Shown: positions 7,373 through 24,332 of the stretch, piece after piece
Layout of the letters: each line of letters starts with the position of its first letter
Position numbering within the stretch: the first letter of the stretch is position 1
DNA from: Clostridiales bacterium
GTDB lineage: Bacteria > Bacillota > Clostridia > Oscillospirales > Oscillospiraceae
Reading direction: 5' to 3'
Length of the DNA stretch: 32,410 bases
Assembly (NCBI GenBank): GCA_021205455.1
Contig: JAJPXL010000084.1
Coordinates: 12,913-45,322 of the forward strand
Program-made: the position numbers and the translations under genes
Notes under the pieces: generated by a model
What the model saw: only the letters and a program-made list of their open reading frames with translations
Databases searched by the model: none
Told to the model about the DNA's origin: nothing

Positions 7373-7412
7373 AATGCTCCCCTTATGAGACTTCTCATAA
7401 GGGGAGCATTTT
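7373..7412. terminator. Bidirectional terminator between the TSCPD gene and copA
   Basis: AATGCTCCCCTTATGAGA and its exact complement form an almost perfect hairpin (7373-7410; 16 pairs with a 6-base loop in practice), with TTTT on the right and AAAAAAA (7364-7370) on the left. It can stop transcription from both sides of this convergent pair. Confidence 0.85.
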
Positions 7413-7432: not shown

Positions 7433-7642
7433 TTACTGCACGCCCTTGACTTCATAGCCCGCGTCGGTGACGGCGGCGGTCAGCACCTCGTCCGCCACGG
7501 GGACGTCCAGGATGACGGTGGCGGTCTTGGCCTCCAGATCGACCACTGCGGAGGTCACACCCGCCACGGCGGACAGGGCCTTCTCCACGTTGGCCTTGCA
7601 GTGGGCGCACATCATGCCCTCTACAGTCAGTACCTTTGTCAT
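7433..7642 (-). CDS. Possible internally initiated CopZ-like copper chaperone
   Basis: The last 69 codons of copA begin with ATG (codon 879, at 7642), preceded by GAGGTGA (7648-7654) at good spacing. The encoded piece [20 protein letters not shown] is a complete, self-sufficient HMA domain of CopZ size. It could be made as a separate Cu(I) carrier from the same mRNA, as well as being the C-terminal domain of the ATPase. This is inference from the ribosome site and domain boundary; the site may have survived from a gene fusion and be unused. Confidence 0.35.
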
Positions 7643-10276
7643 TGTGTTCACCTCGTTTTCTTTCCTATCTGATTCACTCCTGGGAGTGGGGACAGTACAT
7701 TCACCCGGCTCATAGCCGGCCTCCGTCACGGCGGCGGCCAGTGCCTCATCTGCCACGGTCGCGTTCAGGGTGATGGTGACGCTGTGGGCCTCCAGGTCGG
7801 CTTTGGCGGAGCGCACCTCCGGCAGCGCGGTCAGCGCCTCCTCCACCCGGCGGGTGCAGTGCTGGCACATCATGCCGTTGACGGCAAGCACACGGGTCTC
7901 CCCGTCATTCTGGGGCGCGGACAGGGGACAGGCTGGGGGTTCCTCCGGCGCTGCGGGCGCGGCAGTTGACAGGGCAGCGGCGGGGGCGCTGTGCTTCGGC
8001 CTGAAGAACCGCAGCCGCAGGGCGTTGGACACCACGGAGACGGAGCTTAAACTCATGGCCGCCGCGCCGAAGATGGGGCTGAGCTGCCAGCCCAGGATGG
8101 GGTAGAACACCCCGGCGGCCAGGGGGATGCCTATGCAGTTGTAGCAAAAGGCCCAGAACAGGTCCTGCTTGATGTTGCGGATGGTGGCCCGGCTCAGCTC
8201 CATGGCGGTGACGGCGTCAAACAGGCTGCTCTTCATCAGCACCACGTCGGCGGATTCCAGGGCAACGTCGGTGCCCGCGCCGATGGCGATGCCCACGTCC
8301 GCCCGGGTCAGGGCGGGGGCGTCGTTGATGCCGTCCCCCACCATGGCCACCTTGCGGCCCTCCTGCTGGAGGGCGGAGATCTTTGCTTCCTTCTCAGTGG
8401 GCAGCACTCCGGCGATGAAGGAGGAGATGCCCAGGGTTTTCGCCACGGCGGCGGCGGTGCGCTGATTGTCGCCGGTGAGCATGACCACGTCCACCCCCAA
8501 ATCACGGAAGGCGTCCACGGCGGCCTTGCTGTCGCTGCGGGGCACGTCCGCCACGGCGATGATGCCCAGGAGCTGGCCGTCGGCGGCGAAGTACAGCGGG
8601 GTCTTTCCGGCCTCCGCCAGGACGTCTCCCGCCCCGGCTGGGACGGCGACGCCCTCCGCCTCCATCAGCGCCTGATTGCCCGCCAGGTAGCGCTTGCCCT
8701 CCAGGGTAGCCCGCAGGCCCCGCCCCGGCTGGGCGGAGAAGTCCTCTACCGGCAGCGTTGCGACGCCCCGCTCTTTGGCGGCCCGGACGATGGCCTCCGC
8801 CAGGGGATGCTCCGACGGGGCCTCCAGCGAGGCGGCCAGCTGGAGCAGCCGCGCCTCAGAGACGCCCTCCGCCGGGACCAGGTCGGTGACTACAGGCTTG
8901 CCCTCGGTCAGGGTACCGGTTTTGTCCACCACCACGGTGTTGACGTCGTGAAGAGATTCCAGCGCCTCGGCGGATTTGAACAGTACGCCCAGCTCCGCCC
9001 CCTTGCCAGTGCCCACCATGATGGCCACTGGGGTGGCCAGCCCCAGGGCGCAGGGGCAGGAGATCACCAGCACGGCCACGGCGGAGGTCAGCGCGCTGGA
9101 GACGCTGCCGGAAACCAGCATCCACACCACGAAGGTGACCAGGGAGATGCACAGCACCACCGGCACGAACACCCCCGCCACCTTGTCGGCCAGCTTGGCG
9201 ATGGGGGCCTTGCTGGCGGAGGCGTCCTCTACCAGATGAATGATCTGGGACAGGGTGGTGTCCTCCCCCACCCGGGTGGCCCGGAAGGTGAAGGAGCCGT
9301 TCCTGTTGATGGTGGCGGCGGAGACGCTGTCGCCAACGGCCTTCTCCACGGGGATGGACTCCCCGGTCAGGGCGCTCTCGTCCACGGCGGAGGCGCCGGT
9401 CAGCACTACGCCGTCCACCGGGATGGCCTCGCCGGGGCGCACCAGCAGGGTGTCCCCCGGCTGCACCTCCTCCACCGGGACGACGCGCTCCGCGCCGTCC
9501 TCCAGCCGGGTGGCGGTCTTGGGAGCCAGGTCCATCAGCCGCTCCATGGCCTGGCTGGTCTTGCCCTTGCTGCGGGTCTCCAGGAACTTCCCTACTGTCA
9601 CCAGCGTCAGAATCATCCCCACGCTCTCCAGATAGAGGTGGTTCATGTGGTACTCCTCCGCCAGCTCCAAATCGCCGTGGCCCAGCGCCCAGCTGATGAC
9701 GAACATGGAGTAGAGGGAATACAGCAGGGAGGCGGCGGCCCCCAAGGCCACCAGCGAGTCCATGTTGGGGGCGCGCCGGAACAGGGCAGGGAAGCCCACC
9801 TTAAAATACTTGTCATTGACGTACAGGATGGGCAGCACCAGCACGAACTGGAGCAGGGCGTAGGTCATGCTGTTCTCCACCCCGGTCAGGAAGGCGGGCA
9901 GCGGCGCGCCGAACATATGCCCCATACAGACGTAGAACAGGGGCACCAGGAAGCAGACGGAGATGATGAGACGGGTCTTCATCCACCGCAGCTCCTTGTT
10001 CATCTCCTCCTTCCTGGCCTGGGCCTCCGCCTGGGCGGAGGAAGCGGCCCGGCCGCTCTGCTCCTGCCCGGCCACGGTGGCCCGATAGCCTGCCTTCTCC
10101 ACGGCGGCGCAGATGTCCTGGGGGGTCAGCGCGTCCGGGTCGTAGGTGACCACCATCGTCCCGGCCAGCAGGTTCACCGGGGCCTCCTGCACCCCCTCCA
10201 GGCCGCCCACCGCCTTCTCCACATGGGACTGGCAGGCGGCGCAGCTCATGCCGAATACGTTGAACTTTTGCTTCAT
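7433..10276 (-). CDS. copA: Copper(I)-exporting P1B-type ATPase with N- and C-terminal HMA domains
   Basis: 947 residues. Order: N-terminal metal-binding domain with GMSCAAC (about residues 9-15), eight-helix membrane domain, actuator TGES (304-307), copper-transport CPC (407-409), phosphorylation DKTGT (D451), nucleotide-binding SEHP (H490), hinge GDGINDAP (about 647-654), and helix signatures YN and MSLSS that specify Cu(I). After a Pro/Ala-rich linker come two further HMA domains, GMMCQHC (about 801-807) and GMMCAHC (about 887-893). It pumps Cu(I) out of the cytoplasm. It follows csoR by 27 bases, with AAAGGAAC before its ATG. CopA normally has its metal-binding domains only at the N-terminus; the last domain looks like a fused CopZ chaperone. 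Confidence 0.95.
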
Positions 10277-10303: not shown

Positions 10304-10603
10304 CTATTTCAGCAGCTTTTGCAGGGTTTTCACCAGCTCCTCCACCTTTTCGTCGTTGCCGGCCCGGATGTCCTCCGCTACGCAGGTGAGGATGTGGGTG
10401 GACAGCAGCTCTTTGGTGAAGCTGTTCAGGGCGGCGGTGGTGGCGCTGACCTGGGTCAGGATGTCCACGCAGTAGCAGTCCTCGTCCACCATCCGTTTCA
10501 GCCCCCGCACCTGACCCTCGATGCGGCTCAGGCGGTTGGTCAGGTCCCGGTGCTCCTCCGGGGAGCGCTCCTTTTTGCGCTCGCAGCAGCAATGCTCCTC
10601 CAC
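10304..10603 (-). CDS. csoR: CsoR-family copper-sensing repressor
   Basis: 99 residues with the all-helical CsoR/RcnR fold (NRLSRIEGQVRGLKRMVDED). The Cu(I) ligands fit the C-H-C spacing of CsoR: C45, H70 and C74 (CYCVDIL; STHILTC). Cu(I) binding releases it from DNA (family knowledge). I chose GTG at 10603 because AAAGGAG is nine bases upstream and it gives the normal N-terminus; a longer ATG-started frame would run through the operator. Unusually, the N-terminus carries EEHCCCE, an extra His/Cys cluster. It is the first gene of the csoR-copA operon, and two CsoR-type palindromes stand at its promoter. Confidence 0.92.
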   Translation of the reverse strand: MEEHCCCERKKERSPEEHRDLTNRLSRIEGQVRGLKRMVDEDCYCVDILTQVSATTAALNSFTKELLSTHILTCVAEDIRAGNDEKVEELVKTLQKLLK

Positions 10604-10626
10604 GTGGGTCAACTCCTTTCTATCGG

Positions 10627-10643
10627 ATACCCCTTGGGGGTAT
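10627..10643. promoter_or_regulatory. CsoR operator 2 (downstream of transcription start)
   Basis: ATACCCC-TTG-GGGGTAT, centred 38 bases from operator 1 and between the predicted transcription start and the csoR ribosome site. The pair may allow cooperative binding or a roadblock. Confidence 0.7.
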
Positions 10644-10659
10644 TTCTCGGTACAACAGC

Positions 10660-10689
10660 AGTATATACCCTCCGGGGGTATCCTGTCAA
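10660..10689 (-). promoter_or_regulatory. csoR-copA promoter
   Basis: On the minus strand TTGACA (10689-10684) and TATACT (10665-10660) are separated by 18 bases, close to consensus. A CsoR-type palindrome fills the spacer, so bound CsoR should block RNA polymerase. Confidence 0.8.
10665..10681. promoter_or_regulatory. CsoR operator 1 (within promoter spacer)
   Basis: ATACCC-TCCGG-GGGTAT, a GC-core palindrome with A/T ends of the kind bound by CsoR, lies between -35 and -10 of the operon promoter. Release by Cu(I)-CsoR would allow transcription. Confidence 0.75.
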
Positions 10690-10700
10690 GGGGGAAGCGC

Positions 10701-10732
10701 AAAAAAAACTGCGCACCAGCGAAGGTGCGCAG
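10701..10732 (-). terminator. Terminator after the DUF378 gene
   Basis: Read on the minus strand, CTGCGCACC and GGTGCGCAG form a perfect nine-pair stem with a short loop, followed by eight T. It separates the DUF378 gene from the copper operon promoter. Confidence 0.9.
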
Positions 10733-11318: not shown

Positions 11319-12464
11319 TCATACCGCTTTTTTCCGAAAAAAGCTACCTCTTTTCCGAAAAAGAACGGCGATCCCCAAAATTCCGCACCAGGCCCCCAAT
11401 CCCAGCAGGGGCGGCAGGAGGTTGGCGGAGTACCCTCCGGTCACAGCGGCGGCGGAAGTCATCGTGCTGACCGCCCAGGGGAACAGCTGCACCGCCGCCG
11501 CGGCCAGCACAAAGGAGATGCAGCCGTGGAGCAGCTGCCCCTTCAGGCACCACAGGGGGGACAGCCCGCTGGCGGCCAGCATGGAGGCGGTCTGGCAGAA
11601 AATGGACAGCCCGCCGAAGCCCAGCAGGAAAGCGGCCACCGGCGCGGCGTAATAGACGGAGGCCCCCTCCAGCAGGGCCACCCCGTTGGTCAGCTCCACC
11701 AAGCCGGACAGCAGGGCCTCGGCGCAGGCGGCGTCCACACCCAGCCCTTCCAGCAGCCGGATGCCCGGCTGGAGCAGCCCGAAGAGCCGCGCCAGCCGCA
11801 GAATCACCGCGAACAGCACCACGCAGGCGCAGACGTTCAGGGAGGACTGCACCGCGCTGCCGATGGCGTTGGTGAACGCCTGGGAAAAGCGGACGCTCCG
11901 CCCGGCAGAGGGGACATCAGGACCCCCGCCCGCCGGTTCCCCTCCCGGCCGCAGCCAGCGCGCCAGCAGGCCGCAGCACAGGGCGCTGACGATGTGGACG
12001 CCCAGCAGCAGCCACCCCGCCCGAACGCTGCCCAGCACGCTGGCCCCCGCCACGCTGAGGATGAAGGCGGGGCCGCCGTTGTTGCAGAAGAGCAGCAGCC
12101 GCTCCCCGTCCTGCCGGGAGAGCTGCCCCTGCTCGCAGAGCTGGGCCACCGTCCTGGCCCCCAGGGGATATCCTCCGATGAGGCCCAGCAGCAGCGGCGC
12201 GGCCCCTCCGCCGCTGACGCCGAAGAGCGCCCTCATCGCCGGGCCGCACCAGCGCCCCAGGGCGCCGCCCAGCCCCAGCTCCGTTACCAGCGCAGACAGC
12301 ACGAAGAAGGGGAACAGGGAGGGCAGCACCACCTCCGCGCAGAGGTTCAGACCGGTTTTCGCCCCCGCTGCCGCATCCGTCGGGCGCAGCACCAGCGCCA
12401 GGGCGAAGCCAGCCAGGCAGAGAGCCACCGTCAGCGTGCGGAACATCGGACGGCGTGCAGACAT
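11319..12464 (-). CDS. ylbJ: YlbJ-like sporulation integral membrane protein (nucleoside-recognition domain)
   Basis: 381 residues with several transmembrane segments. Family motifs are LPSLFPFFVLS (about 47-57), GLIGGYPLGARTVAQL (about 94-109) and CNNGGPAFIL (about 127-136). YlbJ is a sigma-E-dependent protein needed for forespore/coat development in Bacillus (family knowledge). I chose ATG at 12464 with GAGGTGA just upstream, rather than an in-frame TTG at 12482, which lies in a hairpin loop. The ribosome site itself is inside an 11-pair hairpin shared with the end of the nrdDG unit, and a sigma-E-like promoter overlaps that hairpin. Confidence 0.85.
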   Translation of the reverse strand: MSARRPMFRTLTVALCLAGFALALVLRPTDAAAGAKTGLNLCAEVVLPSLFPFFVLSALVTELGLGGALGRWCGPAMRALFGVSGGGAAPLLLGLIGGYPLGARTVAQLCEQGQLSRQDGERLLLFCNNGGPAFILSVAGASVLGSVRAGWLLLGVHIVSALCCGLLARWLRPGGEPAGGGPDVPSAGRSVRFSQAFTNAIGSAVQSSLNVCACVVLFAVILRLARLFGLLQPGIRLLEGLGVDAACAEALLSGLVELTNGVALLEGASVYYAAPVAAFLLGFGGLSIFCQTASMLAASGLSPLWCLKGQLLHGCISFVLAAAAVQLFPWAVSTMTSAAAVTGGYSANLLPPLLGLGAWCGILGIAVLFRKRGSFFRKKAV

Positions 12465-12470
12465 AAAAAT

Positions 12471-12503
12471 CACCTCACGCAAAGGTATGCTCTGCGTGAG
12501 GTG
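12471..12503 (-). terminator. Hairpin after nrdG that also covers the ylbJ ribosome binding site
   Basis: CACCTCACGCA (12471-12481) and TGCGTGAGGTG (12493-12503) are perfect complements around an 11-base loop; on the minus strand the stem is followed by ATTTTT. It could terminate nrdDG transcripts, and on readthrough RNA it would hide the ylbJ GAGGTGA site. Confidence 0.65.
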
Positions 12504-12510
12504 AAAATAC
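12482..12510 (-). promoter_or_regulatory. Candidate sigma-E promoter for ylbJ inside the hairpin
   Basis: On the minus strand GTATTTT (12510-12504), 14 bases, then CATACCTT (12489-12482) resembles the sigma-E pattern of a -35 like KMATATT and a -10 like CATACAMT. Transcripts starting about seven bases later would lack the upstream hairpin arm. Supported by family expectation and spacing only. Confidence 0.4.
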
Positions 12511-12527
12511 CTGCCTTGTCCGGCAAT

Positions 12528-13061
12528 TCAGGGCATGACCGTCCCGTCCCAGGGGACGACGACCCCCTGGGCCAGGCTCTGGGGCACGTCAATGATGCTC
12601 TGGTTTTCGCTGCCCCGGAACCGGAGGCGGATGTTCTTCTCCTCCAGGCGGAAGTCCCCGTCCACCAGCACGTCCAGGTAGCTCAGCAGCTCCCGGGTGA
12701 CGGCGGGGTCCCCTACATGGCCGGGGAGGAGGTCGTTCTCGTAGTTGTAGCCGGTGTAGCACCAGATGGTCTTGTCCGGCAGCTCTCGGCGCACCCGGCG
12801 CAACAGGGGGAGCAGGGCCGGCTGGTTGGCGGGCTCGAAGGGCTCGCCCCCCAGCAGGCTCAGGCCGCGGATGTAGTCCGGGCGGAGGCTCTCGATGATC
12901 TCTTCCTCCACGGCAGGGGTGAAGGGCTGGCCGTAGTGGAAGTCCCAGGCCTCCTCATTGAAGCAGCCCTCGCAGTGGCGGGTGCAGCCGGAGACGAACA
13001 GGGCCGTGCGGCAGCCGGGGCCGTTGGAGATGTTGCACTTTTTGATGGCGGCGTAATACAT
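12528..13061 (-). CDS. nrdG: Anaerobic ribonucleotide reductase activating protein (radical SAM)
   Basis: 177 residues. The CTRHCEGC motif (about residues 26-33) is the CxxxCxxC that holds the [4Fe-4S] cluster; GGEP follows near 71. NrdG uses S-adenosylmethionine to form the glycyl radical on NrdD. It is preceded by GGGAGAG and lies 25 bases after nrdD, forming an operon. The sequence reads through cleanly to WDGTVMP at the end. Confidence 0.95.
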   Translation of the reverse strand: MYYAAIKKCNISNGPGCRTALFVSGCTRHCEGCFNEEAWDFHYGQPFTPAVEEEIIESLRPDYIRGLSLLGGEPFEPANQPALLPLLRRVRRELPDKTIWCYTGYNYENDLLPGHVGDPAVTRELLSYLDVLVDGDFRLEEKNIRLRFRGSENQSIIDVPQSLAQGVVVPWDGTVMP

Positions 13062-13086: not shown

Positions 13087-15234
13087 TCAGGTCAAATGCA
13101 GCACCCGGCTGTTGATCTCTTTCGTCTTGCCCACGTTCCAGAAGTTCTCCCCCAGATAACCGCAGGTGCGGCGCACCACGTTCATCTTATTGTGGTCCCG
13201 GTTGCCGCAGCAGGGGCACTCCCAGACCAGCTCGCCATTGTTGTCCTCCACGATTTGAATCTCTCCGCTGTAGCCGCAGCACTGGCAGTAGTCGCTCTTG
13301 GTGTTGAACTCGGCGTACTGAATGTTGTCGTAGATGAACTTCACCAGGTCGGTCAGGGCGGTCAGGTTGTCCGCCATGTTGGGGATCTCCGCATAGCTGA
13401 TGCAGCCGCCGCTGGACAGGGCCTGGAACTTGGCCTCCAGGCGGAACTTGCTGAAGGCGTCGATCTCCTCCCGGACGTCCACATGGTAGGAGTTGGTGTA
13501 GTAGCCCTTATCGGTGACGTTGGGGACGTTGCCGTACTTCTCCTGGTCGATGCGGGCGAAGCGGTAGCACAGGCTCTCCGCCGGGGTGCCGTACAGGGCG
13601 AAGCCGATGTTGGTCTCCGCCCGCCAGCGCATGACGGAGTCCTTCAAATGCTGCATGACCTGGAGGGCGAATTCCTGTCCCTCCGGGGTGGTCTGGCTCT
13701 GGCCGGTCATCAGGTAGGTCAGCTCATACAGGCCGATGTAGCCCAGGGAGATGGAGGAGTAGCCGCCATAGAGCAGCTTGTCAATGGTCTCCCCCTTGTC
13801 CAGCCGGGCGATGGCGCCGTACTGCCAGTGAATGGGGCTGGCGTCGGAGGTGACGCCCTTCAGGGCGTTGTGGCGGCACATCAGCGCCTCCTTACACAGC
13901 TCCAGCCGCCGGTCGAACTCCGGCCAGAACTTGTCCATATTGCCGTGGACGGCCAGACCGATCTGGGGCAGGTTGATGGAGACGACGCCCTGGTTGAACC
14001 GTCCCTCGAACTGATACTCGCCCTGTTCGTTCTTCCAGGGAGCCAGGAAGGAGCGGCAGCCCATGGGGGAGAACACGTTGCCCTCATAGTTCTCCCGCAT
14101 CTTCTTGGCGGAGATGTAGTCGGGGTACATCCGCTTGGCGGAGCAGCGGATGGCAAGTTCCGTCAGGTAATCATAGGCCCCGCCGTTCAGGTTGTTGTTT
14201 TCATCCAGCACATACACCAGCTTGGGGAAGGCGGGGGTGACGTAAACGCCGCTCTCGTTCTTGATGCCCAGCAGCCGCTGGCGCAGAATCTCCTCGATGA
14301 TGAGGGCGTTCTCCTCAATGTAGGGGTCGCCGTCCCGCAGGTACAGGAACAGGGTCACGAAGGGGCTCTGGCCGTTGGTGGTCATCAGGGTGTTGATCTG
14401 GTACTGGATGGTCTGGACGCCGTTGGACAGCTCGGTGCGGAGCCGCTCCTCCACCAAATTGTTCAGCAGGGCCTCGTCCATCTCGCCCCCGGCTGCGGCG
14501 AGGATTTTCTTGCGGAACTTGTCCCGGCTGCGGCGGAGGTACTTGCCCAGGTGACTGATGTCCACGCTCTGGCCGCCGTACTGGTTGGAGGCCACGCAGG
14601 CGATGATCTGGGTGGTGACGGTGCAGGCCACCTGGAAGCTCTTGGGGCTTTCGATGAGCTTGCCGTTCATCATGGTGCCGTTGTCCAGCATATCGCCGAT
14701 GTTGATGAGGCAGCAGTTGAAGATGGGCTGCACGAAATAGTCCGCGTCGTGGAAGTGGAGGACGCCCTCGTCGTGGGCCTTGGCGATCTTCTCCGGCAGG
14801 AGGACGCGGCGGGTCAGGTCCCGGCTGACGATGCCGGCGATGTAGTCCCGCTGGGTGGAGGCCACGGTGGTGTCCTTATTGGAGTTCTCCTCCGCCATCT
14901 CCTTGTTCTGGTTGTGAATCAGCTCCAGGATGGAGTCGTCGGTGGTGTTCTGCTTCCGGGCCAGGGACCGCTTGTAGCGGTAAATCATGTAGGCCTTGGC
15001 CAGGTGGTAGTTGGCCTTCTTGGTCAGCTCCTCCTCCACCATATCCTGAATGTCCTCCACCAGGATGCGCTCCCGCCGGAAGCACTCCTCACAGACGGCA
15101 TCGGTGATGTAGTCCACCATTTCCCGGGGGATGCGATAGACGGGGGCTACGTCCTCGTTGGCATTCTGGATGGCCAGCGCGATTTTGGTGCGGTCGAAGG
15201 GCACAAAGGTGCCGTCCCTCTTGATTACTTGCAT
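13087..15234 (-). CDS. nrdD: Anaerobic (class III) ribonucleoside-triphosphate reductase
   Basis: 715 residues. An N-terminal ATP-cone (VIKRDGTFVPFDRTKI, about 3-90) gives allosteric control; the barrel follows. Near the C-terminus are paired Cys for zinc (YCQCCGYSG, WECPCCGN) and the glycyl-radical motif RTCGYLGENF, with the radical Gly at about residue 692. It reduces NTPs to dNTPs without oxygen, activated by NrdG. ATG 15234 follows AGAAGG. The promoter carries two NrdR boxes and the leader is about 180 bases. A long open frame on the opposite strand is a GC-driven shadow. Confidence 0.96.
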   Translation of the reverse strand: MQVIKRDGTFVPFDRTKIALAIQNANEDVAPVYRIPREMVDYITDAVCEECFRRERILVEDIQDMVEEELTKKANYHLAKAYMIYRYKRSLARKQNTTDDSILELIHNQNKEMAEENSNKDTTVASTQRDYIAGIVSRDLTRRVLLPEKIAKAHDEGVLHFHDADYFVQPIFNCCLINIGDMLDNGTMMNGKLIESPKSFQVACTVTTQIIACVASNQYGGQSVDISHLGKYLRRSRDKFRKKILAAAGGEMDEALLNNLVEERLRTELSNGVQTIQYQINTLMTTNGQSPFVTLFLYLRDGDPYIEENALIIEEILRQRLLGIKNESGVYVTPAFPKLVYVLDENNNLNGGAYDYLTELAIRCSAKRMYPDYISAKKMRENYEGNVFSPMGCRSFLAPWKNEQGEYQFEGRFNQGVVSINLPQIGLAVHGNMDKFWPEFDRRLELCKEALMCRHNALKGVTSDASPIHWQYGAIARLDKGETIDKLLYGGYSSISLGYIGLYELTYLMTGQSQTTPEGQEFALQVMQHLKDSVMRWRAETNIGFALYGTPAESLCYRFARIDQEKYGNVPNVTDKGYYTNSYHVDVREEIDAFSKFRLEAKFQALSSGGCISYAEIPNMADNLTALTDLVKFIYDNIQYAEFNTKSDYCQCCGYSGEIQIVEDNNGELVWECPCCGNRDHNKMNVVRRTCGYLGENFWNVGKTKEINSRVLHLT

Positions 15235-21908: not shown

Positions 21909-24284
21909 ATGACAGACTTATTTGAAAAATCCATCCGCACGCTGGAGCTGCCCAGCGTGCTGGAGCTGCTGGCGGCCCAGGCGGTCAGCACCGACGGCAA
22001 GGAGCGGTGCCGCGCCCTGCGCCCCTCGGTGGAGGAGGCGGAGGTGCTGCGCCTCCAGGCGGAGACCACGGCGGCCCGGAACATGATGGACCTGAACGGC
22101 CCGCCGGCCCTGGCCAACGTGGCGCCGGTGGCGGCCTCCCTGCAGCGGGCAGACCTGGGGGGCAGCCTGAACCCCCGGGAGCTGCTGGACATCGCGGCGG
22201 TGCTGCGCACCGCCCGGGAGGTGGCCGCCTATGACGGCGTGGGGGAGAATCCCACGGTGCTGGACGGTACATTCCGCTCCCTGCGGGTGAACCGCTACCT
22301 GGAGGACAAGATTTACGGCGCAATCCTCTCCGAGGAGGAGATTGCCGACAACGCCAGCCCGGAGCTGGCGGATATCCGCCGCCACATCCGCCTCAGCACC
22401 GGCAAGGCCCGGGAGGTCTTGCAGCGGCTGATCTCCTCCAGCGCGGCCAAGTACCTGCAGGAGCCCATCATCACCATCCGGCAGGACCGGTTCGTGGTGC
22501 CGGTGAAGGCGGAGTTTAAGAGCAGCGTGCCGGGGCTGGTACACGATGTGTCCGCCACCGGCTCCACCTACTTTATCGAACCTATGGCGGCGGTCCAGGC
22601 CAACAATGAGCTGCGGGAGCTGCTGACCAGGGAGGAGGTGGAGATTGCCCGCATCCTGGCGGCCCTCTCCGCCGAGGCCGCCTCCTTCCAGGGGGATATT
22701 TTGCTGGACTACCAGCTTCTGGTGGAGTTGGACGTGATTTTCGCCCGGGCCAAGCTCAGCACCCGGATGTGGGGCATGGAGCCGAAGCTCAGCGAGGACG
22801 GCAGCTTCTCCTTCCAAATGGCGCGGCACCCCCTGCTGGACCCCAAGACGGCGGTGCCCATCGACCTGCGGCTGGGCAGCGACTTTGACACCCTGGTCAT
22901 CACCGGACCCAACACCGGCGGCAAGACGGTGACGCTGAAAACGGCGGGGCTGCTGACCCTGATGGCCCAGTGCGGCCTCCATCTGCCGGTGTCGGACGGC
23001 AGCACCTTCGCCGTGTACCGGGAGGTGCTGGCCGACATCGGGGACGAGCAGTCCATCGAGCAGTCCCTCTCCACCTTCTCCTCCCACATCACCAACGTGG
23101 TGAAGATTCTGGAGGAGGCGGACGACCGGACGCTGCTCCTCTACGACGAACTGGGGGCGGGCACCGACCCCGTGGAGGGCGCGGCCCTGGCCGTGGCCAT
23201 CATCGAGGAATCCCGGGCCCTGGGGGCCAGGCTGATCGCCACTACCCATTACGCGGAGTTGAAACAGTACGCCATGACAACGCCTGGTGTTCAGAATGCC
23301 TCCTGCGAGTTCGATGTGGAGACCCTCCAGCCCACCTACCGGCTGCTCATCGGCCTGCCGGGGAAGTCCAACGCCTTTGCCATCTCCCGACGGCTGGGCC
23401 TGCCGGAGCACGTCATCGACCACGCCATGGAGCGGATGGACAGCCAGAACATCCAGTTTGAGGACATCCTCTCCCAGCTGGAGCAGCAGCGCCAGCAGAT
23501 GGAGGCGGAGCGCCGGGAGAGCGAGCGCCTGCGCCGCCAGATGGAGGAGGACGCCGCCGTCTCTGCCCAGTATCGGGAGAAGATCGAGCAGGAGCGGGCC
23601 AAGGTGGTGGAGAAGGCCAACGCCGAGGCCAGGCAGATTCTGGCCGATGCGCGAGCCGCCTCCAACACGGTGTTCCACGAGCTGGACAACCTGAAAAAGC
23701 GCCAGCGCCAGGGCCAGCAGGATTGGCAGAACGACAACGAGGAGCGGGCCGCCCTCCGCCGGAAGCTGAACGAGGCGGAGTCCGCCCTGGACCAGGGCGC
23801 AGCCCTGCCAGAGCTGCCTGCCAGCCGCCCGGCGGAGCAGGGGGACACGGTGGAGCTGGTCAAGACCCGCACCAGGGCCCAGGTGCTGGCGGTGAACAAG
23901 GACGGCACCCTCCAGCTCCAGGCGGGGATTCTGAACATCACCGCCAAGCAGGGGGACGTGCGTGTGGTGGAGCCACAGAAACAGGCGGGGAAGCCCAAGC
24001 GCCCCACCGGACAGGTCCACGCCGACGTTCACGCTGCCCCCAGCCGCCAGGAGCTGGATGTCCGCGGCATGACGGCGGACGAGGCTGTGGCCGTGGTGGA
24101 GCAGTACCTGGACAATGCGGTGATGGCCCACCTGACCACCGTGACTATCATCCACGGCAAGGGCACCGGCGCGCTGCGGGCCGCCGTCCAGCAGTACCTG
24201 AAGACCTGCAAGTATGTGAAGCGCTACCGCCTGGGCCGCTACGGCGAGGGGGAAAACGGCGTGACGGTGGTGGAGCTGAAATAG
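21909..24284 (+). CDS. mutS2: MutS2 (RqcU-like) ATPase/endonuclease
   Basis: 791 residues. Core and lever region, then Walker A TGPNTGGKT (about 333-341), Walker B LLLYDELGAGTDP (about 411-423), a long coiled coil rich in Gln/Arg/Glu (about 515-640), and a C-terminal Smr domain with LDVRGMTADEA and HGKGTGALR. MutS2 suppresses recombination or, in Bacillus, helps split collided ribosomes (family knowledge). ATG 21909 follows GAGGAAAAAG; it ends before a strong terminator. Confidence 0.95.
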   Translation: MTDLFEKSIRTLELPSVLELLAAQAVSTDGKERCRALRPSVEEAEVLRLQAETTAARNMMDLNGPPALANVAPVAASLQRADLGGSLNPRELLDIAAVLRTAREVAAYDGVGENPTVLDGTFRSLRVNRYLEDKIYGAILSEEEIADNASPELADIRRHIRLSTGKAREVLQRLISSSAAKYLQEPIITIRQDRFVVPVKAEFKSSVPGLVHDVSATGSTYFIEPMAAVQANNELRELLTREEVEIARILAALSAEAASFQGDILLDYQLLVELDVIFARAKLSTRMWGMEPKLSEDGSFSFQMARHPLLDPKTAVPIDLRLGSDFDTLVITGPNTGGKTVTLKTAGLLTLMAQCGLHLPVSDGSTFAVYREVLADIGDEQSIEQSLSTFSSHITNVVKILEEADDRTLLLYDELGAGTDPVEGAALAVAIIEESRALGARLIATTHYAELKQYAMTTPGVQNASCEFDVETLQPTYRLLIGLPGKSNAFAISRRLGLPEHVIDHAMERMDSQNIQFEDILSQLEQQRQQMEAERRESERLRRQMEEDAAVSAQYREKIEQERAKVVEKANAEARQILADARAASNTVFHELDNLKKRQRQGQQDWQNDNEERAALRRKLNEAESALDQGAALPELPASRPAEQGDTVELVKTRTRAQVLAVNKDGTLQLQAGILNITAKQGDVRVVEPQKQAGKPKRPTGQVHADVHAAPSRQELDVRGMTADEAVAVVEQYLDNAVMAHLTTVTIIHGKGTGALRAAVQQYLKTCKYVKRYRLGRYGEGENGVTVVELK

Positions 24285-24296
24285 GATTCGTTATTG

Positions 24297-24332
24297 AAAA
24301 ACGGGCTGTGCAGCAGTTGCACAGCCCGTTTT
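24297..24332. terminator. Bidirectional terminator after mutS2
   Basis: AACGGGCTGTGCA and TGCACAGCCCGTT form 13 perfect pairs around a five-base loop, with AAAA before and TTTT after. It can end both mutS2 and the convergent exporter operon. Confidence 0.9.

Follow-up and report, generated by a model that had tools for sequence, protein, structure and literature searches.

The window, by which is meant the whole stretch of 32,410 nucleotides that was analysed, carries a ylbJ (spoVV) gene on its minus strand, with nrdG and nrdD as the immediate upstream neighbours in the same orientation. The features of the locus are listed below.

11319–12464, minus strand: ylbJ (spoVV) CDS, 381 aa, ATG start at 12464–12462; TIGR02871 E 6.5e-58, Gate domain PF07670
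12465–12469, minus strand: TTTTT, the spacer between the Shine-Dalgarno sequence and the ATG; a terminator-like U run
12470–12484, minus strand: hairpin 3' arm, containing the Shine-Dalgarno sequence GAGGTGA (12476–12470)
12475–12479, minus strand: predicted start region of a sigma-E-type RNA, placed about 7 nt downstream from the -10 position
12485–12489, minus strand: loop CATAC, core of a putative sigma-E-type -10 CATACC (12489–12484)
12490–12504, minus strand: hairpin 5' arm TCACCTCACGCAGAG, complementary to the Shine-Dalgarno sequence; in the proposed inner promoter it would separate the -35 from the -10
12507–12512, minus strand: AGGTAT, position of a candidate -35 element, invariant in 6 of 6 sequences
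12515–12521, minus strand: GGACAAG, upstream limit of the sequence block retained next to ylbJ where nrdG has moved away
12528–13061, minus strand: nrdG, TIGR02491 E 1.5e-51; a possible source of read-through RNA
13087–15234, minus strand: nrdD, NF006732 E 7.3e-279

The TIGR02871 score for ylbJ is 196.5 bits, which is under the model's curated cut-off of 304.65 bits, and the gene is therefore named YlbJ-like. None of the 44 genomes of the order passes this cut-off, so it seems too strict for this order. In the available portions of the sources, YlbJ/SpoVV of Bacillus subtilis is a DPA transporter encoded by a SigE-controlled mother-cell gene (PMC5629000), and the YlbJ-like gene of C. difficile belongs to the sigma-E regulon (PMC3789822).

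Read 5' to 3' on the minus strand, positions 12512 to 12462 are AGGTATTTTCACCTCACGCAGAGCATACCTTTGCGTGAGGTGATTTTTATG. An earlier note on this DNA described an 11-pair perfect hairpin here with the ylbJ GAGGTGA in one arm. This is correct, and four further pairs extend the stem: the 11 Watson-Crick pairs are followed by A-U, G-U, A-U and G-C, giving 15 pairs (one of them G-U) between arms 12504–12490 and 12484–12470, with CATAC as the 5 nt loop. The predicted energy of the hairpin is -26.0 kcal/mol. The region folds better than all of its 200 shuffled versions (z -3.87), as computed on the plus strand, in which the dyad is identical. The 68 nt upstream were also put through 20000 dinucleotide shuffles: a stem of at least 11 pairs over GAGGTGA was found in 52 and one of at least 15 pairs in three. 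The hairpin is real and not a product of chance.

The ylbJ dyad is the sixth entry among the 52 close inverted repeats of the window. The longest of these is an 18 bp perfect inverted repeat with a 2 nt centre at 7373–7410, just beyond the gene for a copper P-type ATPase, which may be a terminator or an operator. The ATPase itself (7433–10276, minus strand, 947 aa) has three HMA stretches, with matches at the N-terminal end and near the C-terminus, and metallochaperone-like domains seem to be fused at its C-terminus. A 19 nt inverted repeat (84%) at 10625–10683 overlaps the start of a copper-sensing repressor-like frame of the RicR/CsoR type (10304–10702) and is a possible operator. A 15 bp perfect inverted repeat with a 5 nt centre is located at 24298–24332, past a frame ending at 24284. 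Rfam gave no matches at gathering score anywhere in the window.

The ylbJ stem has 8 G-C pairs and is followed by a T run, which are features of an intrinsic terminator, and a terminator scan identified it as a terminator-like site of 15 pairs with the tail TTTTTATGTC. In the predicted read-through RNA a stable stem pairs the Shine-Dalgarno sequence, with GAGGTGA unpaired in 0.4–1.2% (0.004–0.012). Both halves of the earlier proposal, that read-through RNA would either terminate or hide the ribosome site, are therefore plausible. For RNA begun inside the hairpin, at 12479–12476, GAGGTGA is predicted to be unpaired in 24–36% (0.24–0.36). The site is thus more exposed in such an RNA, as had been supposed, but the predicted exposure is partial. 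The terminator score also suits a simpler explanation, in which the hairpin is a plain intrinsic terminator of nrdDG, the ylbJ Shine-Dalgarno sequence falls in its 3' arm by coincidence, and the CATAC in the loop is incidental.

The YlbJ protein is present in 30 of the 32 genomes of the genus. The close set consists of six genomes besides the window, with ylbJ 82–90% identical, one of which (G012) was left out of the leader comparison because its contig begins inside ylbJ. The stem is kept in the window and in all five of the remaining relatives, with 90 of 90 pair cells intact. Across these six sequences 14 of the 15 pairs are invariant and one varies between A-U and G-U, the 5' arm being identical in all six save for one A/G position at which pairing is retained. 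Covariation in the stem is almost nil, with a single one-sided change and shuffles that score equally. The loop is CATAC in five of the sequences and CATAG in L006, with CATA present in all six. The leader from GGACAAG to the ATG is nearly invariant in the window and the five relatives; four-fold sites of ylbJ differ by 6–20% between genome pairs, and the last 40 bases of the leader differ at 0–3.

The distance from the end of nrdG to ylbJ is 66 nt in the window and in L003, and 67 nt in L005. It is 984 nt in L004 and 602 nt in L006, with the GGACAAG-to-ATG block kept, and in L008, where 241 nt of contig lie upstream, nrdG does not adjoin the leader. The element should therefore be seen as belonging to ylbJ rather than to nrdG. 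While nrdDG does lie directly upstream in the window, its read-through as the specific threat to ylbJ, as the earlier note had it, is doubtful, since the hairpin is unchanged in L004 and L006. The T run is TTGTT in L006 and L008, yet their stems are intact, and for this reason hiding of the ribosome site seems to be the lasting constraint. A hairpin that stays with ylbJ, survives a broken T run and retains CATA in every sequence is not what would be expected of a plain nrdDG terminator, and that explanation is considered unlikely. As the sole role of the hairpin, termination of nrdG is weakened by L004, L006 and L008.

The short distance between nrdG and ylbJ in the window, L003 and L005, together with the lack of a sigma-70-type promoter within 12300–12700, would suit a different arrangement, in which ylbJ is transcribed from a start before the hairpin, or by read-through only, and a factor or coupled translation of nrdG opens the stem, which would then act as a translational switch within one long RNA. 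This is very improbable in light of the displacement of nrdG in L004 and L006, the difficulty of opening a predicted stem of about -26 kcal/mol, and the occurrence of CATA 12–15 nt before the Shine-Dalgarno sequence at other spore genes.

A sigma-E-like -10 had been placed in the loop of the hairpin. CATAC fits such an element, but the 3' arm begins with the sixth base of CATACC, and the -10 is therefore not wholly within the loop. The -35 and -10 elements of sigma-E promoters are spaced by 16–18 nt, and a -35 candidate, GTAT, is located 17 nt upstream of CATAC. By the C. difficile motif this -35 is weak, being GTAT/ATT with no ATA at the right spacing (motif as given in the available part of PMC3789822). 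A putative sigma-E start at 12475–12479 would produce a very short leader of 11–15 nt, and the usual 7 nt distance might place it at 12475, with loss of the first G of GAGGTGA. The reading of the ylbJ leader as one with a nested promoter is thus partly supported. Pairing of the leader AGGTA with the loop TACCT, also suggested previously, was rejected because the loop base changes in L006, where CATAGC breaks the pairing, and because AGGTAT fits the position of the -35.

The expectation that the dyad would be conserved upstream of ylbJ in relatives holds in the close clade (6 of 6), but the dyad is found in only 6 of the 32 genus genomes and is absent from the other 26. Genus members with 39–48% ylbJ identity have leaders without it, many of which have GTCTAT and CATAGG spaced by about 14 nt, with the Shine-Dalgarno sequence apart from them. 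The leaders seen that lack the dyad have no such hairpin, and many carry an ordinary promoter further up. Across the order ylbJ is present in 40 of 44 genomes. Leaders were considered at 25 loci and judged at 23, L321 being without a start and L323 having a doubtful TTG. Among the 23, the same layout is clear in L300 and partial in L304, and there is none in the rest. L300, from the ylbJ of genome G843 in another family of the order, has an unrelated hairpin of C/G runs, with CATACT in the loop and a G-rich ribosome site in the arm, and would represent an independent case at the same gene. The layout at ylbJ is clade-bound and probably arose more than once.

In the window's own genome, a scan for CCTC...CATA...GAGG gave 82 hits, fewer than the 112 of the reversed control, and so no general excess. 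Examination of 30 hits and 9 further stretches found that only ylbJ and a TauE/SafE-family gene (PF01925, 1.7e-22) join a stem of at least 10 pairs with a start codon. The leader of the latter has GTATAAAA...CCCTCCCCATCCATACTGGATGGGGAGGGATTTC before a TTG start, and in the same clade this gene also has GTAT 18 nt before CATAC. Its hairpin is kept in 7 of 7 close genomes, all with CATAC in the loop, and 99% of cells are paired. A single T-A/C-G double change occurs, in three sequences; the covariation is weak, with 56 of 500 shuffles scoring as high. Ten further members of the genus all have the hairpin leader, making 17 of 17 overall (L268–L284), nine with CATA in the loop and eight without. 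In two of the 17 (L275 and L281) the hairpin is apart from the Shine-Dalgarno sequence, like a plain terminator, which counts in favour of the terminator explanation; the hairpins of the others contain it. These leaders look as if a terminator had merged with a ribosome site. The TauE hairpin is at least as likely to be a terminator.

The layout was also sought at other genes, using the pattern TCACCTCA, 5–9 nt, CATA, 6–10 nt, TGAGGTGA in a contig collection described as 84,980 species. A total of 22 stretches were found, five of them from the ylbJ clade (the window's own genome is possibly outside the collection). Eight of the 17 non-ylbJ stretches have an ATG 3–7 nt past the Shine-Dalgarno sequence and a frame of at least 67 aa. 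These genes, from other Clostridia, include matches to SpoVB (7.5e-78), SpoIIM (1.7e-4) and a SpoIIQ-like protein (1.4e-18), and two PBP2/SpoVD-like genes (one of the two scanned), the remaining three being a 98 aa protein and a 77 aa protein without a match and one, also without a match, that is cut by the contig end. The other nine stretches are without such a gene on that strand, which might be about what chance gives.

When CATA was not required, the pattern TCACCTCN{12,28}GAGGTGA matched at 77 places across the 391 class genomes scanned. The reversed pattern matched at 42, of which 8 belong to a single genome. Of the 77 places, 75 were listed and all 75 were examined with their flanks; 42 of the 150 strand-rows have a start codon 3–12 nt behind the dyad and a frame of at least 60 aa. 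About half of the start-linked dyads have 7–9 pairs and by a rough estimate match chance expectation; since these are no commoner than chance, weight is placed on the long stems. CATA is present 11–16 nt before GAGG in 14 of the 42 start-linked rows; its mirror TATG stands there in two of them (p 0.0016), and 4 of 30 control leaders have CATA at this distance (p 0.06). Behind stems of at least 11 pairs the spacer is T-rich, T making up 0.73 of it (n=20) compared with 0.27 for the 30 control leaders, and this again favours a terminator.

Of the 19 genes with stems of at least 11 pairs, counted without the antisense frame on the plus strand of the window dyad, 10 are of spore or cortex type by Pfam or NCBIfam. 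These are two GerA genes, four LysM or LysM-YkuD genes, a polysaccharide deacetylase, a PG-binding-YkuD gene, an amidase and ylbJ, where LysM, YkuD, amidase and deacetylase families are taken by us to be of this type. The other nine are a serpin, an HTH protein, an M78 protein, an IS200-type transposase (L115) and five without a match, and such hairpins are therefore also found before non-spore genes. The control consisted of GAGGTGA-N5-ATG genes, one per genome from 30 genomes, which gave 25 genes once frames shorter than 40 aa were left out. Two of the 25 are of spore or cortex type, SpoIVB and an amidase with a hairpin leader of its own (p 0.0017 for 10 of 19 against 2 of 25). Addition of a CHAP protein to the control makes this 3 of 25 (p 0.0066). 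L098, a CwlD-like fragment by eye with no Pfam match, was counted as a miss, and counting it as spore type gives 11 of 19 (p 0.0006).

The control amidase gene (L224, genome G602), apparently a homologue of L134, has a palindromic leader CTCATACCATGGTATGAGG that reaches into the Shine-Dalgarno sequence. The serpin gene (L119) and the HTH gene (L135) have 16-pair hairpins over the ribosome site, although neither is a spore gene. The arms of the L135 hairpin enclose TATAAT, so vegetative promoters may use the layout too.

In one family of the class, the LysM genes have promoters of the type AC, 17 nt, CATA, with the -10 in the loop, which appear to be sigma-K-like by the motif in the available part of PMC3789822. 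Of 18 LysM leaders folded, 10 bury the Shine-Dalgarno sequence in a long stem, L144 does so weakly and seven do not. These 10 were compared together with five hairpin leaders of a second, LysM-YkuD gene (group B: L132, which is the same place as L169, and L170–L173). Left out were L174, which was not found by the motif, L177, L179 and L180, which gave the neighbouring gene, and from group A the mis-located L156; L175, L176, L178 and L181 of group B start inside an operon and are without such a leader. The sequences of the LysM leaders have diverged and complementarity has been retained. The mean pairing energy is -24.3 kcal/mol for a leader's own arms and -16.6 kcal/mol for swapped arms, with none of 100000 permutations as good, a figure that is no strict probability because the leaders were chosen for folding and are mutually related. 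An arm's best or close to best match is its own partner, which ranked first in 9 of the 15 leaders. Four pairs have changed on both sides in five leaders of one genus (8 of 500 shuffles). This supports selection on pairing, either as RNA or as DNA symmetry, with the G-U changes favouring RNA.

The alternative of DNA symmetry has a specific form at ylbJ, in which a dimeric regulator bound to the dyad over the -10 represses the gene outside sporulation. A near-perfect 35 bp dyad centred on the -10, whose arms hardly vary across the six sequences, would be consistent with such an operator. However, none of the 32 genus genomes contains the arms a second time at up to 3 mismatches, the arms at other genes share only the Shine-Dalgarno complement and differ elsewhere while remaining complementary, and the A/G change in the ylbJ stem breaks the symmetry of the DNA while the RNA pair is kept. 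An operator is therefore improbable.

The preferred reading is that the ylbJ element is a read-through lock with an inner sporulation promoter, for which the probability is put at roughly two in three. Polymerase from upstream would copy both arms, and the RNA would fold. The folded RNA would be terminated at the hairpin and U run or, if transcription continued, would have the ylbJ Shine-Dalgarno sequence buried in the 15-pair stem. During sporulation a mother-cell sigma factor, most likely sigma-E, would read GTAT...CATAC, with the -10 in the loop. Initiation inside or just before the 3' arm would generate an RNA without the 5' arm, which would form neither terminator nor lock and would be translated. 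The YlbJ/SpoVV DPA transporter would in this way be confined to sporulating mother cells, even where the surrounding transcription unit is busy.

Many unrelated spore genes are preceded by comparable hairpins in which a sporulation-type -10 lies between the arms. This suggests that one device has been adopted convergently, and that ylbJ is not a special case. In its general form the -10 would be positioned between an anti-Shine-Dalgarno and a Shine-Dalgarno sequence, and only an RNA that begins within the hairpin, and whose 5' end coincides with the ribosome site, would be translatable. That spore-forming Clostridia have repeatedly wrapped sporulation promoters (sigma-E, sigma-K and probably sigma-F/G) in a structure serving as both terminator and ribosome-site lock, as a convergent and general insulation against stray transcription, is judged an even bet. 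Leaky sporulation genes are costly, and the sigG gene of B. subtilis already suggests a need to silence read-through. If the layout is common, it would be a mark of sporulation promoters and start sites that can be read from the genomes of unculturable bacteria, it would predict RNAs with the Shine-Dalgarno sequence as their 5' end, and the silence of spore genes inside busy operons during growth would become testable.

The leaders of IS200-type transposases are protected against outside transcription by a hairpin over the ribosome site and a terminator. They share these two features with the ylbJ element and are not known to have an inner sporulation promoter. The principle of a lock that is escaped by starting inside the hairpin is already known and is not new here, since the T4 late genes and B. 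subtilis sigG precede it. In the open-licence literature, which leaves most subscription journals outside, its wide spread over spore genes with the -10 in the loop was not found, and sigG was the only sporulation case in the texts available. The ylbJ/spoVV genes of B. subtilis and C. difficile are likewise sigma-E-controlled mother-cell genes, and no hairpin is described for them in the available portions of PMC5629000 and PMC3789822.

For sigG (spoIIIG), a hairpin of at least 20 pairs is proposed to block translation of the spoIIGA-sigE read-through RNA, and cannot form in the RNA from the gene's own sporulation promoter (PMC5942855, as far as its available text goes). By description, the two systems are alike in that a hairpin in read-through RNA would silence the gene. 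The sigG case differs in concerning one gene, another sporulation sigma factor and a second small hairpin in the leader, whereas at ylbJ the -10 is in the loop and the RNA would start at the Shine-Dalgarno sequence. In the T4 late genes e, soc, 49, I-TevI/II/III and segB, and in mobE of Aeh1, early and middle read-through RNA hides the ribosome site in a stem, and the late promoters start the RNA such that this stem cannot form (PMC2988022 and PMC3014915, in the parts available). These differ from ylbJ in belonging to phage late transcription, without a sporulation sigma factor and without homology. At ylbJ, unlike the phage genes, the T run makes the hairpin terminator-like as well.
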